DNA of 46,032 nt, from contig SVTA01000004.1 in assembly GCA_015064005.1 (NCBI GenBank), forward strand, positions 1 to 46,032, in the 5' to 3' direction. Positions 29,294 through 35,878 of the stretch are shown here, piece by piece. A program made the position numbers and the translations under genes. A model generated the notes under the pieces. It was not told the DNA's origin, ran no database searches, and saw nothing but the letters and a program-made list of their open reading frames with translations. The stretch comes from Oscillospiraceae bacterium. GTDB lineage: Bacteria; Bacillota; Clostridia; Oscillospirales; CAG-272. How positions within the stretch are numbered: position 1 is the stretch's first letter; each line of letters opens with the position of its first letter.

Positions 29294-30658
29294 TTAGCAT
29301 ACCCCTTTGGAATAGTCAAGTTTCTTCGCCGCGTGTTTTAAAAAAATTAACAAATACAGATAGCGAAGCAGAGTAAGAGCGCCGGAAACGAGCAAAAGCG
29401 TGACGGCGTCGATTTGCGTGTAGAGGAAGATCTCCACGCCGAGGGCCACGGCAGAAAGCAGCCCCGCCACGGCAAGATGCCCCCTCCCGGTAAGGTCGCG
29501 GCGCACGGGCCCCACGATCAGTAGCAGGAAGCCCGCAAGGAAAACGAGATACGTGAGGCCCTGAAGCCAAAGGTTGATCTCGCCAAACAGAAGCGCCAGA
29601 TCATGCTCGAAGGCAAGGCGGGGGAGGTAGATCATCTGAAGGGCCGAAAGCAGAAAATCCAGAGTACCGCCCAGCACCTCGGCGCCGAGGATCAGCAGGT
29701 AGCCCACGCGAGCGGGGCGATCTCTGCCGCTTTCCCGATATTCATGGTAGAAATAAATCAAGAAAAGCACGAACCAAAAGCCGGCGGCAAGAGGGAGCCA
29801 CGCAAAGTAATTGAGTGCGATCAGCTGATCTGTCATCGTAGCGCCGCTATTTGCCAGTAATGCCTCCGCCGTCGTATAAGCGGCACGCAGCAGGATCACC
29901 AGCAGGAGCGCTATAAAGGTTGCCCCGGAAAGCACGTGCCTTTTCAGGTACGAGAGCCGCTCCAATGCCGAGAAGATGGCGTAGGTGGCGGCCGTCATCA
30001 GCAGGATCAGGCTCCAGAGCAGCAGGCAGAGGAGAAGAATCCTTGGCGTGCGGGAGGAATGGAGCAGCACCTCGCCCAGCGCCGCACCACAGAATGAAAG
30101 GCCGAGGCAGCCAAGCAAAAGAAGGGCAAGGCGCCCGATGCTTTTCAGCACCGCACGGCCGTAGTGAGGGGTCTCTTGGGCGGCGTAGTTGAAATAAATA
30201 TCCCGTTCCTTAAAGGCGAAGGCCAGATACGCGGCCAGCAGCAGAAAGAGATTCAGGGCTACCTGTGCGGTATCGATGGCAGCATAGTTGATATTGGTAG
30301 TCACGCAAAGCGACAGTGGATACAGCAGGGCAAAGGCACCGAGGGTACCGTACAGCATATAGCGTCCGGCCCGACTCCAAAAGGCGGCGCGGGTCGCTGC
30401 CGTACGTTCATCCTGCTGTGTACCACGCCCGCAGAGCGCTCCTGCGACAAGACAAGCGATGCCGAGGAGGAGGACGGTGGCTTCAAAATATACGGGCAGA
30501 TAATAGTGGGATTTGGGGAAGGCGCGGGTGCCCTCTATGTTGAGAAATACGTTCACCCATCGCAGCGCACCGCACAGTAGCGCCCAGAGAGTGGCCAACA
30601 GAATGCCGTTGCGGGCGATTCTGCCCCGTTCAAATTCAATGCGTTCATCGTAAAACAT
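29294..30658 (-). CDS. Polytopic integral membrane protein of unknown function, coupled to the XRE regulator
   Basis: MFYDERIEFERGRIARNGILLATLWALLCGALRW...; many hydrophobic segments; start overlaps the stop of the upstream HTH gene (TAATG). Confidence 0.8.
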   Translation of the reverse strand: MFYDERIEFERGRIARNGILLATLWALLCGALRWVNVFLNIEGTRAFPKSHYYLPVYFEATVLLLGIACLVAGALCGRGTQQDERTAATRAAFWSRAGRYMLYGTLGAFALLYPLSLCVTTNINYAAIDTAQVALNLFLLLAAYLAFAFKERDIYFNYAAQETPHYGRAVLKSIGRLALLLLGCLGLSFCGAALGEVLLHSSRTPRILLLCLLLWSLILLMTAATYAIFSALERLSYLKRHVLSGATFIALLLVILLRAAYTTAEALLANSGATMTDQLIALNYFAWLPLAAGFWFVLFLIYFYHEYRESGRDRPARVGYLLILGAEVLGGTLDFLLSALQMIYLPRLAFEHDLALLFGEINLWLQGLTYLVFLAGFLLLIVGPVRRDLTGRGHLAVAGLLSAVALGVEIFLYTQIDAVTLLLVSGALTLLRYLYLLIFLKHAAKKLDYSKGVC

Positions 30659-30855
30659 TATGACACCTCCCAGAAAAGATCGTTCAGCGTTAGCCCCAGC
30701 GCCCGACAAATGCGGATGCAGAGCTCGATGGTGGGATTGTAGCCGCCGTTTTCGATCATATTGATGGTCTGCCGCGAGACCCCGATCTGCCGTGCCAGCT
30801 CTCCCTGTGATAGATGCAGCTTTGTGCGCGCGTCACGCATGCGGTTATTTTCCAT
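30658..30855 (-). CDS. Small XRE-family HTH transcriptional regulator
   Basis: MENNRMRDARTKLHLSQGELARQIGVSRQTINMIENGGYNPTIELCIRICRALGLTLNDLFWEVS. Confidence 0.92.
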   Translation of the reverse strand: MENNRMRDARTKLHLSQGELARQIGVSRQTINMIENGGYNPTIELCIRICRALGLTLNDLFWEVS

Positions 30856-30864
30856 ATGGCCCCC

Positions 30865-30925
30865 TGTCAATTATATTTGACATAATTATAGCATGTTTCT
30901 TTTGAGATGTCAAGTATATTTGACA
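30865..30925 (-). promoter_or_regulatory. Promoter of the XRE/membrane protein operon flanked by two 18-bp palindromic operators
   Basis: Minus strand TTGACA (30913-30908)-17-TATAAT (30890-30885); palindromes TGTCAATTATATTTGACA (30865-30882) and TGTCAAGTATATTTGACA (30908-30925). Confidence 0.85.
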
Positions 30926-31022: not shown

Positions 31023-31051
31023 TTGACACCGGATTTATTTTTTATTAAAAT
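31023..31051 (+). promoter_or_regulatory. Promoter of the ceramidase-like / DUF4838 operon
   Basis: TTGACA (31023-31028), 17-nt spacer, TAAAAT (31046-31051). Confidence 0.65.
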
Positions 31052-31124
31052 GTAGGAAGAGGATTGTTGCTATGTGCCCGGAGGGGTGTGACGGACAATC
31101 TCACTTGAAAAAAGGAGAAAACGA

Positions 31125-32492
31125 ATGCTGAAGGCAGGATTTATGGAGGTAGACTATACCCCCGACGAGGGCTGGATGCCCGGACAGATCGAAAGACATT
31201 ACGCCAAGGGCGCGCGCACGCCGATCATGGCGCACGCGGCGGCGATTGAAAGCAGTACGGGCAATGCCGTGCTGATCTCGCTGGATATTTTGTTCGTTTC
31301 GCAGAATTTTACGGATGGCTTGCGCCGTCGGGTATCGGAACGGATCGGTATTTCCGGAGAGCATATTTTCATTGCCGCTACCCATACCCACACGGGCTGC
31401 GGCACGGACGTGGATTGCTGGGGCACTCCCGCTGACGCGGAAATGGCTGCCAAGGTGCAGGATGCCGCCTTTGAGGCTGCCGTCACCGCATGGGAGCGTC
31501 GCTCCGCTTGCAGAATGGGTGTCGGCACAGGCTTTGACGCGCGCTTTAACTTCTGCCGCGACTGGTTCACCACCGACGGCACCATCAAATTCAACCCCAG
31601 CATGAAGAATCCCGAAAAGCTGGTGCGCCCCTATGCGGCGGTGGATCATACCGTCAACGTGATCCGCTTCGATAACGAGGCGGGCGAACCCCTTTGCTTT
31701 GTGGTCAATTACGCCAACCATCTGGATACCAACAATCGCCGCGATGCCTTTTCCGCCGATTATGCGGGCTTTATGCGCCTGGCGCTGCGCCGTGAATATG
31801 GCGACGTTGCGGTGCTGTTCCTCAACGGCTGCTGCGGCAACGTGAACCATTACGATTTTGCTACCGGCAGCCACCTCACCGGCCATTGCAGAGAGGGCGT
31901 GCTTCCTGCGGAGGAGATCGGTAACGGCCTTGCCGAAACGGTAGAGGGCATCACCCCCGCCATTCTCACCGAGGCAAAGGACGTGCATATCCAGAGCCGC
32001 ATCAGGCCCTATATGACCTCTCGCCGCCTTGCCACGGAAAAGAACAAGGCTTGGGCCAAGGAGTGGCAGGCTACCCGCGAGGCACGCCTTGCCGCAGGTG
32101 AAAAGCAGGATCTGCGCCGGGATATCCTGGCCGAGCTCTATCTCTGCGATGAATCGAAGCTTGAAAAGACCGTAGATCTGGACATCCAGGTGATGCAGCT
32201 CGGGCCCATTGTGCTGGTGGGTCTGCCCGGCGAGGTCTATTCCGACGTAGGATTGAAGATCAAGGCGCTTTCGCCCTTCCCCAACACCGTGGTGGCAGAG
32301 CTGGTGGGCGGCCATAAGGGCTATATCACCCCTGAGATCATTCAGCGCTCCGGCTGCTATGAGGGCACCTACAGCAACATTGCCTTTGCGGGCCCCGAGA
32401 CCCCCGATATGCTGGTGGAGGGCGCCGTGCAGATGCTGAAGTCCCTGTATGAGGTGGACAACCACACTGTGATCGGTGATTTTGCGTTCTGA
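31125..32492 (+). CDS. Neutral/alkaline ceramidase-fold protein (paralog 1), no signal peptide
   Basis: AATHTHTGCG, VNYANHLDT, LPGEVYSDVG, GGHKGYITPEIIQRSGCYEGTYSNIAFAGPET correspond to ceramidase zinc-ligand blocks. Confidence 0.82.
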   Translation: MLKAGFMEVDYTPDEGWMPGQIERHYAKGARTPIMAHAAAIESSTGNAVLISLDILFVSQNFTDGLRRRVSERIGISGEHIFIAATHTHTGCGTDVDCWGTPADAEMAAKVQDAAFEAAVTAWERRSACRMGVGTGFDARFNFCRDWFTTDGTIKFNPSMKNPEKLVRPYAAVDHTVNVIRFDNEAGEPLCFVVNYANHLDTNNRRDAFSADYAGFMRLALRREYGDVAVLFLNGCCGNVNHYDFATGSHLTGHCREGVLPAEEIGNGLAETVEGITPAILTEAKDVHIQSRIRPYMTSRRLATEKNKAWAKEWQATREARLAAGEKQDLRRDILAELYLCDESKLEKTVDLDIQVMQLGPIVLVGLPGEVYSDVGLKIKALSPFPNTVVAELVGGHKGYITPEIIQRSGCYEGTYSNIAFAGPETPDMLVEGAVQMLKSLYEVDNHTVIGDFAF

Positions 32493-32541
32493 CCGAAAAT
32501 TCCAAAAAATATTTAAAAATTCCAAAAAGGAGTGTTTGCTG

Positions 32542-33852
32542 ATGAAAGCAGGATTTGCACAGGTCGATTTCACCCCTCCCTACGGCTATATGCCCGGAGA
32601 ATTTGACGGCTATTACGCCTTTAGCGCACATTTGCCCCTTTGCGCCAATGCCGGCGCCTTTGGCGAGGGCGAGGACACCGTGATCCTCATTTCCGCCGAC
32701 TACATGCAGTTTCCCACCCATTATGCCGATACCATCCGTAAAATGACCTCTGAAGCTACCGGCGTGCCGGTAGACCATATCACCCTGGCCGCCACCCACA
32801 CGCATATGAGCTGCTCCTCCCCCGATAATTGCTGGAAATGCCCCGGCGAGCCCGAGATCGCTGCCGTGGTGGCCAAGCGCATCGCACAATCCGCCGTGGA
32901 GGCTCTTGCTAACCGCAGGGAGGCTACCCTTTCCGCCGGTATCACCGAGGAGCGGCGCTTCAGCTTCTGCCGCGACTGGGTGCTGAAGGACGGCACTGTC
33001 AAGTGCAACCCCGGCTACACCCGTGACGACCTCGATCACACCTGTGCCACTCCCGATTATCGCGTCAATGTGATGAAGGTGGAGCGCGAGGGCAAGCTTT
33101 CCGCCATCATGGTGAACTACGCCAACCACCCCGACACGCACTGGGGCAAGGATCGCATGAAGTTCAGCCCCGAGTGGCCCGGCTTTATGCGCAAGGCTCT
33201 GCAGGAAAGGTACGGCGAGGACGTGAAGGTGCTGTTCTTCAACGGTGCCTGCGGTGACGTCAACGACCGCGATTTCGGTTTCAAGACCGATATCAACGGC
33301 GGCCACCGCGATCCCTCCGCCAATCCCCCCGAGGTCATCGGCAACGGCCTTGCCGATACGGTTTCCAAGCTGCTGGATACCCTGCCTGCCGGCACGGCCG
33401 AGGGCGAGGTCAAGGCCTTTGCCCGCGGTATCACCGTCAACCGCCGTCAGATTTCCGACAGAGAACGCAAGTGGGCGGAGGATACGCTGAAGCGAGCAGA
33501 AAACGAGTACTTGAAGAGCTGGGAGTACGGTACGGCAAAGGCCTTTATGGAGCGTAGCCAGAACGTGCCCGAAACCGAGGAGTTTGTGGTGCAGGTGGTC
33601 AAGGTCGGCCCCTGGGTTATCGCCGCTATGCCCGGCGAGATCTACACCGAGCTGGGACTTTTGGTCAAGGAGGGCTCTCCCTTTGAGCATACCGTGATTT
33701 CCGAGTTGACCAACGGCTCTCACGGCTACGTCATTCCCGATCGCGTCCGCGAAAACGGCTCCTATGAGGGTCGCTTCAGCTCCGGCACCACTGGCTTCGG
33801 TGCTTGCGATGCCATTGTCAAGGGTACGCTGGAGATGCTGAAGGAGCTGTAA
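32542..33852 (+). CDS. Neutral/alkaline ceramidase-fold protein (paralog 2), no signal peptide
   Basis: AATHTHMSCS, VNYANHPDTHWG, MPGEIYTELG, GSHGYVIPDRVRENGSYEGRFSSGTTGFG; homologous to paralog 1 along its length. Start at ATG 32542. Confidence 0.82.
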   Translation: MKAGFAQVDFTPPYGYMPGEFDGYYAFSAHLPLCANAGAFGEGEDTVILISADYMQFPTHYADTIRKMTSEATGVPVDHITLAATHTHMSCSSPDNCWKCPGEPEIAAVVAKRIAQSAVEALANRREATLSAGITEERRFSFCRDWVLKDGTVKCNPGYTRDDLDHTCATPDYRVNVMKVEREGKLSAIMVNYANHPDTHWGKDRMKFSPEWPGFMRKALQERYGEDVKVLFFNGACGDVNDRDFGFKTDINGGHRDPSANPPEVIGNGLADTVSKLLDTLPAGTAEGEVKAFARGITVNRRQISDRERKWAEDTLKRAENEYLKSWEYGTAKAFMERSQNVPETEEFVVQVVKVGPWVIAAMPGEIYTELGLLVKEGSPFEHTVISELTNGSHGYVIPDRVRENGSYEGRFSSGTTGFGACDAIVKGTLEMLKEL

Positions 33853-33882
33853 TACATACTGTAAAAAGCAAAGGAGAAAAAT

Positions 33883-35826
33883 ATGTTTCGTATATACAAG
33901 GTGATTTCCCATCCCACTGTGGATTTTGCGGCCGAGGAGCTGCGCAAGTATCTCTGGATGATGATGCCCGAATGCGGCGGCATTTCCGTAGAGTACAAGC
34001 CCGATGCCACCGACGGCTTCCGCCTCGGTCTGATGTCTGATTTCGGTCTGGATACCTCCGAGGCCGAGGATCTGTTCCTTGACGATATTCTGCACATCGA
34101 TACCGATGAGCAGGGCGGCATCATCGCCGGCAGTAACCACCGTTCGGTGTTGCTTTCGGTCTATCGCTTTTTCCGCGAGAACGGCTGTCGCTGGCTGTTC
34201 CCCGGTGTTGACGGCGAGCTGATCCCCTTGAAGGATATCGTACCCGTTAAGTATCACAAGATGGCGGATTGCCGCTATCGCGGTCAGTGCAACGAGGGCG
34301 CGGAGTATCAGCCCAACATGATGGAGGTCATCGACTTCCAGCCCAAGATCGGCATGAACGTGTTTATGATCGAGTTCGATAACCCCAAGGTTTATTACGA
34401 TTATTATTACAACGCGCAGCATAACACCGCCAACCGTGATCCCGAGCCCGTTACCGCCGACACCGTCAAGCAGTGGAAGCGTCAGTGCGAGGCAGAGCTG
34501 GCCAAGCGCAGTCTGCAGTTCCACGATATGGGTCACGGCTGGACGGCAGAGCCCTTTGGCATTTCCTCTACCAACGGCTGGGTGAAGGAGTTTGACAACC
34601 CCGTGCCCGAGGAGTCCCGCGAGCTTTTGGCGTTGGTCAACGGCAAGCGTGAGCTCCATGAGGGAGTGGCGCTGAACACTCAGTTCTGTATGTCCAGCCC
34701 CAAGGCGCGCACCATTGTGGCGAAGTATATTGCCAATTACGCTGAAACCCATCAAAATGCGGATTACATTCACGTGTGGCTGGCAGATGCCACCCGCAAC
34801 CATTGCGAATGCGACGAGTGCCGCAAGAAGATTCCCTCCGATTGGTACGTGATGCTCCTCAACGAGATCGACGAGTGTCTCACCGAAAAGGGACTTGCCA
34901 CCCGCATCGTGTTTATCTGCTACACCGATACCACCTGGGCACCCACGGTAGAGAAGCTGCATAACACCAAGCGCTTCTCCTTCATGCTGGCGGCCATTAC
35001 CCGTGTTTACACCATTCCCGTGCCCATGCTGGTAGAGGAAAGACCTCTGCCCCCCTATCAGCTCAATAAGCCCGAGACCTTCCCCCTGACGGTGGAGGAA
35101 TACATTCGTCACGCCAAGGCTTGGCGTGCGGCCGGCGAGTGCCCCTCTATGGTGTACGAGTATCATTTCTGGCTGCATCAGTACCGTGACCCCGGCGTAC
35201 TCACCTTTGCCAAGATGATCTACGACGACATTCGTGGCTACCGCGCCAACGGCTTTGATGGCCTTATTGAAGATGGCAGCCAGCGCAGCTACTTCCCCAA
35301 CGGATTTCTGTTCTACGTATATGCCGAGACGCTCTTTGACACCAACGTGAGCTTTGAGGCATTGGTGAAGGATTATTTTGAGAGCGCTTACGGCGAAATT
35401 GCCGACGACGTGCGGAATTATCTCACCGAAATCTCCGATGCCTTCAGCATGGAGTACATCATGAGCAACGACCGCGAGCGCAAGGGCTACTTTAACCCCA
35501 AGCGCGCCAAGCAGCTGCGTGGGGTGAAGGATATCATTGCCAAGTACCAGCCCCTGTTTGCCGAGCATCGCGTCAGCTCCTACCGCGCTCGCACGGTGGC
35601 CATGCGCCTGCTGAAGTATCACATGGAATTCTGCGCCGGCCTTGCTGAGGCCTGGGTGCTGAAGGCCATGGGGGCAGACCCTGAGGCGGTTGCCCGCTTC
35701 TATCAGCTGCAGGATAGCTTCGGTCGTCTGGAATATGAGATCGGCACGTACTTTGACCAGAGAATGTGCTTCTCCTCCCTGAAGCGCCTCATTGATTCCC
35801 CCAAGACCTTCTACGAGGCAGACTGA
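33883..35826 (+). CDS. DUF4838 domain-containing protein (putative glycoside hydrolase-like)
   Basis: AAEELRKYLWMMMPECGG...GSNHRSVLLSVYRFFRENGCRWLFPGVDGELIP...HVWLADATRNHCECDECRK...: alpha-glucuronidase-N-like start and the CxCxxC block of DUF4838 proteins. Confidence 0.78.
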   Translation: MFRIYKVISHPTVDFAAEELRKYLWMMMPECGGISVEYKPDATDGFRLGLMSDFGLDTSEAEDLFLDDILHIDTDEQGGIIAGSNHRSVLLSVYRFFRENGCRWLFPGVDGELIPLKDIVPVKYHKMADCRYRGQCNEGAEYQPNMMEVIDFQPKIGMNVFMIEFDNPKVYYDYYYNAQHNTANRDPEPVTADTVKQWKRQCEAELAKRSLQFHDMGHGWTAEPFGISSTNGWVKEFDNPVPEESRELLALVNGKRELHEGVALNTQFCMSSPKARTIVAKYIANYAETHQNADYIHVWLADATRNHCECDECRKKIPSDWYVMLLNEIDECLTEKGLATRIVFICYTDTTWAPTVEKLHNTKRFSFMLAAITRVYTIPVPMLVEERPLPPYQLNKPETFPLTVEEYIRHAKAWRAAGECPSMVYEYHFWLHQYRDPGVLTFAKMIYDDIRGYRANGFDGLIEDGSQRSYFPNGFLFYVYAETLFDTNVSFEALVKDYFESAYGEIADDVRNYLTEISDAFSMEYIMSNDRERKGYFNPKRAKQLRGVKDIIAKYQPLFAEHRVSSYRARTVAMRLLKYHMEFCAGLAEAWVLKAMGADPEAVARFYQLQDSFGRLEYEIGTYFDQRMCFSSLKRLIDSPKTFYEAD

Positions 35827-35842
35827 TCATTTCACTTAAAGT

Positions 35843-35878
35843 CAAAACGCCCGACAGATTTTTCTGTCGGGCGTTTTG
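35843..35878. terminator. Intrinsic terminator after the DUF4838 gene
   Basis: CAAAACGCCCGACAGA-tttt-TCTGTCGGGCGTTTTG. Confidence 0.85.

Follow-up and report, generated by a model that had tools for sequence, protein, structure and literature searches.

Ceramidase-fold proteins and DUF4838 proteins are, by gene content and linkage, paired in a conserved manner in ruminant-gut Clostridia, and the window (the whole stretch of 46,032 nucleotides that was analysed, from a gut bacterium) carries such a pairing as three plus-strand genes in tight tandem, with a promoter close to consensus in front and a strong terminator behind. The gene set probably serves cytosolic glycan catabolism in a general sense; ranked below this, and more tentatively, the two ceramidase-fold proteins (CER-a and CER-b) may most plausibly be Zn amidohydrolases acting on an amide-bearing sugar, with the DUF4838 protein as their glycosidase partner. 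The folds of both partners are known, and their combination and inferred role are new: no paper on a CER–DUF4838 pairing, or on a ceramidase with sugar-gene clusters, was found in the literature searched, with most subscription journals outside it.

Operon organization and selection

The operon comprises the following features:

31023..31051, + strand: predicted sigma-70 promoter, TTGACA-N17-TAAAAT (11/12 consensus matches; from consensus only)
31125..32492, + strand: CER-a, 455 aa, predicted Zn amidohydrolase of the neutral-ceramidase fold (from profile, AF2 model and residue alignment)
32542..33852, + strand: CER-b, 436 aa, a paralogue that shares the seven predicted active-site residues of CER-a (from homology, alignment and tree)
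33883..35826, + strand: DUF4838 protein, 647 aa, predicted glycoside-hydrolase TIM-barrel fold (from PF16126 and AF2 model)
35843..35878, + strand: intrinsic terminator, a 16-bp stem ahead of a T-rich tail (from sequence)

The first-pass annotation had described a promoter, two ceramidase-like genes and a DUF4838 gene in tight co-orientation, ending at a strong terminator, and this layout holds as stated, with only the CER-b start adjusted, to the ATG at 32542 (a longer GTG ORF would begin at 32476). Gaps of 49 bp (CER-a/CER-b) and 30 bp (CER-b/DUF4838) separate the genes, an AGGAG-type ribosome site can be read directly at each of the three starts, and the three genes are presumably co-transcribed. 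Promoter consensus alone is weak evidence here, because the region held 4 promoter-like matches where 3.3 were expected. Hydropathy, the only measure used, confirmed the earlier observation that CER-a, CER-b and the DUF4838 protein have no signal peptide.

All three genes are under strong purifying selection: dN/dS relative to the closest relative (a sister genome) was 0.10 for CER-a, 0.028 for CER-b and 0.015 for DUF4838, and these low values mark them as real, constrained genes. CER-a, at 93% identity to the sister species, is more divergent than CER-b (98%) and DUF4838 (99%). An antisense ORF (32338-35622, 1094 aa) was rejected as a gene and read as a codon-usage shadow, and a search against Rfam returned no RNA element in the window.

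Ceramidase-fold proteins

CER-a scored 30.6 bits against PF04734, just below the Pfam cut-off of 32.1, and CER-b alone had no Pfam match; profiles and models were needed because phmmer searches of the single sequences against the PDB returned no match. A 20-sequence CER profile matched the neutral ceramidases of human (4wgk, E = 4e-22) and Pseudomonas (2zws, E = 2e-14), and AlphaFold modelling, proposed as a check in the first-pass annotation, gave CER-a a neutral-ceramidase fold (AF2 pLDDT 92.7; Foldseek match to the same two entries, E = 5e-27 for 2zws, prob 1.0). Both CERs are thus predicted to have the PF04734-type neutral-ceramidase catalytic fold, at 36-37% identity to each other and 13-17% identity to true ceramidases.

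The Zn ligands of human ASAH2 we take to be H194, H303, E540 and Y579. A HMMER alignment (register: chain number + 98) placed CER-a H87, H89, R145, H199, E370, Y400 and Y412 at ASAH2 H194, H196, R257, H303, E540, Y579 and Y591, respectively, giving a predicted Zn set (H87/H199/E370/Y400) and a predicted catalytic set (H89/R145/Y412). All seven residues are invariant in 30 of 30 CERs, including the zinc ligands, on whose presence the earlier reading had been made to depend. In ASAH2, H196, R257, Y579 and Y591 are catalytic and Ser354 positions Arg257 (PMC6952831). This Ser, part of the amidase motif NxGDVSPN, is absent from the CERs, its position being occupied by Asn in 28 of the 30 (N241 in CER-a) and by Gly and by Val in the two remaining sequences; the register at this site was taken by motif because the profile alignment stops short of it.

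The CERs therefore share with neutral/alkaline ceramidases (PF04734; human ASAH2 4wgk, Pseudomonas 2zws) the predicted catalytic fold, Zn ligands and catalytic His/Arg/Tyr, but they differ in having Asn for Ser, no match to the C-terminal Ig-like domain (in either CER-a or CER-b), no secretion signal, shorter chains (436-455 aa versus 646-688 chain residues in the ASAH2 and Pseudomonas structures) and amino-sugar gene contexts. Because the amidase-motif Ser, the secretion signal and the C-terminal domain match are all missing, CER-a and CER-b fall outside the neutral ceramidases as strictly defined. The Ser-to-Asn change beside the catalytic Arg, together with the low identity to true ceramidases and the GH38 alpha-mannosidase and GH20 genes near some CERs, would fit a CER that has drifted to another hydrolysis (of an ester, a lactone or a glycosyl-amide such as GlcNAc-Asn) while still serving glycan catabolism, but all amidase metal and catalytic residues are kept in every relative examined, and we regard such a drift as unlikely.

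Two unusual CER arrangements were also observed. A 1166-aa ORF in a rumen Lachnospiraceae MAG (L131, 2-3499) has a CER domain behind a repetitive N-terminal region, which suggests that extracellular CER versions may exist. On contig C16 of genome G013, about 11 CER-like genes form a one-strand tandem array (L037, 6830-18780, and L038, 3-5438); two large genes of family F21, FtsK-like by eye, lie upstream of it.

DUF4838 protein

The DUF4838 protein matched PF16126 with 63.5 bits (Pfam cut-off 26.6), and its AF2 model (pLDDT 93.2) had Foldseek matches to GH115 and GH67 alpha-glucuronidases, GH20 hexosaminidases and GH84 (E ~1e-9 to 1e-11, TM 0.4-0.6), predicting a glycoside-hydrolase TIM barrel of GH115/GH67/GH20-like type. 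In profile comparison, the match to GH67 was weak (whole-sequence E = 5e-5, no single stretch significant), and hhalign against four GH20 neighbours aligned YIHVWLAD302 with GH20 YIHIGGDE (probability 31%, E = 5e-4), an alignment that is suggestive, not secure. In this low-probability alignment, D302 falls on the GH20 catalytic Glu and the GH20 polarising Asp is replaced by Ala, Gly or Ser, such that the GH20 Asp-Glu catalytic pair is absent, reading Ala/Gly/Ser-Asp in 41 of 41 DUF4838 sequences; D302 itself is invariant (41/41). The predicted fold is thus shared with GH20 beta-N-acetylhexosaminidases and GH67/GH115 alpha-glucuronidases, and the aligned D302 and an invariant H218 near the GH20 Gly-His motif are shared with GH20, whereas low identity, the replaced polarising Asp and an invariant Cys motif of its own (C308-x-C310-x-x-C313) distinguish DUF4838 from these families.

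A DUF4838-named protein has been called GH163 (PMC9870897), a link to that family by label only. The GH163 enzyme that has been characterised works at the cell surface, on N-glycans (PMC10154615), in contrast to the DUF4838 protein of the window with its lack of a signal peptide. No DUF4838 relatives were found in viral contigs, and there is thus no sign of phage carriage. At four loci (L088, L113, L096 and L109), four or five DUF4838 genes stand in tandem.

Linkage of CER and DUF4838 genes

Three contigs of the genome that contains the window (C43, C75 and C20) carry CER and DUF4838 genes together. Among 77 named DUF4838 loci, mostly from ruminant-gut Clostridia and Oscillospiraceae MAGs, a CER gene was present in 23, and in 19 of the 77 it lay within two same-strand genes of DUF4838 (usually <40 bp away or overlapping), with several CER–DUF4838 sets per genome; the linkage in relatives that the first-pass annotation had treated as critical was thus recovered as CER–DUF4838 adjacency. 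Divergence of the two partners was correlated (Mantel r = 0.83 for 22 pairs and 0.74 for 17 non-redundant pairs, P = 1e-4), de-duplicated pairs being used because several loci are the same records as the searched genomes. Among relatives, counting strong matches only, CER occurred in 12 of 13 DUF4838 genomes versus 3 of 46 others (P = 5e-9), and class-wide in 16 of 21 versus 42 of 270 (P = 9e-9), both tests ignoring kinship. Chance adjacency was rejected on the linkage counts, the Mantel correlation and genome co-occurrence.

On a CER tree of 129 rows, the DUF4838-linked state requires 9 changes, and the association appears on this tree to have arisen more than once. CER-a and CER-b fall on separate sub-branches of one starred 19-row clade, 16 rows of which are DUF4838-linked. 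Adjacency is largely confined to the window's genus and near relatives: most DUF4838 loci have no adjacent CER, and a DUF4838 gene was found in 0 of 60 CER loci sampled class-wide.

Gene contexts and proposed function

Genes near DUF4838 encode AraC, Gfo/Idh/MocA, GH2, GH4, fucose isomerase (FucI), glucuronate isomerase (UxaC) with altronate enzymes, GH78, GH29, GH95, GH20, GH3 and a glucuronyl-esterase-like protein, and because these glycoside hydrolase sets are mixed (fucose, rhamnose, uronate and hexosamine), no single glycan stands out; GH20 also occurs beside CER. CER-type proteins themselves were found in 58 of the 291 Clostridia genomes sampled (about a fifth). In the class-wide sample of 60 CER loci, fetched regardless of DUF4838, the genes within three same-strand genes of CER included DegT (23 loci), ROK (13), Gfo (10), NagA-like (8) and NagB-like (5), the NagA-like and NagB-like proteins scoring below their NCBIfam cut-offs, and 39 loci had one or more of DegT, Gfo, NagA-like and NagB-like. 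Genomes carry 2-10 DegT genes (eight genomes), and the binomial probability of DegT near CER was <1e-20, with loci taken as independent and about 2300 genes assumed; close relatives among the loci make the counts less than fully independent. One lineage has a fixed cluster, ROK-CER-M8-M9-DegT-PIG-L deacetylase-NagB-like-NagA-like-Gfo (L193, L199, L207 and L209; L197 has the same cluster without a called PIG-L), in which M8 and M9 (~150 aa each) had no Pfam match.

DegT and Gfo/Idh/MocA are a common pair in amino-sugar biosynthesis, and their occurrence with CER could mean that an amino-sugar glycan of the cell surface is being made or remodelled, with CER deacylating a sugar intermediate alongside DegT/Gfo-type enzymes; a GT2 glycosyltransferase, membrane proteins and a DegT aminotransferase also follow in the window on the opposite strand. 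However, these downstream surface genes lie in a separate transcription unit and were found beside CER–DUF4838 in no relative except the sister species, NagA-like, NagB-like and ROK genes typically belong to catabolism, and DUF4838 and the many glycoside hydrolase neighbours indicate degradation, which leaves a biosynthetic role improbable.

The same contexts bear on sphingolipid catabolism, in which a glycosphingolipid or plant glycosyl inositol phosphoceramide would lose its sugars to DUF4838 before CER hydrolysed the ceramide. The ceramidase fold and complete catalytic set of CER would serve such a route, and the alpha-glucuronidase structural neighbours of DUF4838 would suit glucuronic-acid-bearing lipid chemistry, but we consider it unlikely given the Ser354-to-Asn change in 28 of 30 CERs, the missing C-terminal domain match and secretion signal, a score of 12.6 bits with the NCBIfam neutral ceramidase profile, whose cut-off is 1200, the amino-sugar genes of the class-wide CER contexts and the absence of recognised lipid-metabolism genes nearby. 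On the earlier suggestion that the organism looks sphingolipid-free, a serine-palmitoyltransferase proxy (TIGR01825) scored 416 bits against a cut-off of 535, but the same family search matched in 13 of 14 control genomes and so does not discriminate.

The amide-sugar reading draws instead on the intact amidase centre, the apparent cytosolic location, the missing C-terminal domain and amidase-motif Ser, and the amino-sugar and glycan neighbours. The operon would then encode the cytosolic catabolism of a glycan fragment that is imported and carries an amide, N-acylated amino sugars or related N-acyl glycoconjugates being the likeliest substrates. CER-a and CER-b, as Zn-dependent amidohydrolases using the neutral-ceramidase catalytic centre described above, would cut a secondary amide (for example, the N-acyl group of an amino sugar, perhaps as N-deacylases) and probably differ in substrate, and DUF4838, as a GH20/GH67/GH115-like TIM-barrel glycoside hydrolase with D302 as the probable acid, would cleave the glycosidic bond. 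We infer the enzymatic activities, the substrate and the order of steps; genes for a transporter, a kinase, NagA or NagB are absent from the operon itself, and substrate transfer to the window's clade is an extrapolation because the DegT/NagA contexts occur mainly in other CER clades. The earlier proposal that the hydrolases act on an N-acyl or glycan compound brought into the cell emerges as the likeliest role from these contexts, and its interpretation as a whole is kept for the operon-like unit, the ceramidase-fold pair and DUF4838 and refined by the amino-sugar/glycan context and the glycoside-hydrolase fold of DUF4838.

A broader proposition, with perhaps a modest chance of being right, is that uncultured gut Clostridia have recruited the ceramidase fold on a wide scale for the cytosolic N-deacylation of amino sugars, giving a new enzyme class, with some branches coupled to DegT/Gfo/NagA/NagB/PIG-L pathways and another to a DUF4838 glycosidase in which the GH20 polarising Asp is missing because the enzyme works once the N-acyl group is gone. 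If the amide-sugar reading is correct, the annotation of CER-type ceramidase-fold proteins would change, cytosolic DUF4838 proteins would gain a possible first function, and the pairing would point to a carbohydrate resource of ruminant-gut bacteria rich in CER and DUF4838 copies.

Adjacent genes and regulatory elements

Proteins of family N14 (~500 aa, lipoprotein-like; L081, L066, L089 and L101), encoded beside CER and DUF4838 genes, had no Pfam or NCBIfam match and are a candidate binding protein family. In the window, a minus-strand unit lies upstream of the operon:

30913-30885, - strand: promoter with perfect consensus
30658-30857, - strand: small HTH regulator, 3' of this promoter
29294-30658, - strand: membrane protein, behind the same promoter with the HTH regulator

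Two copies of the palindrome GTCAAnTATATTTGAC (30866-30881 and 30909-30924; 0.04 matches expected by chance) flank this promoter, and the arrangement resembles an XRE-type regulator unit under its own control, running divergently from the CER operon.
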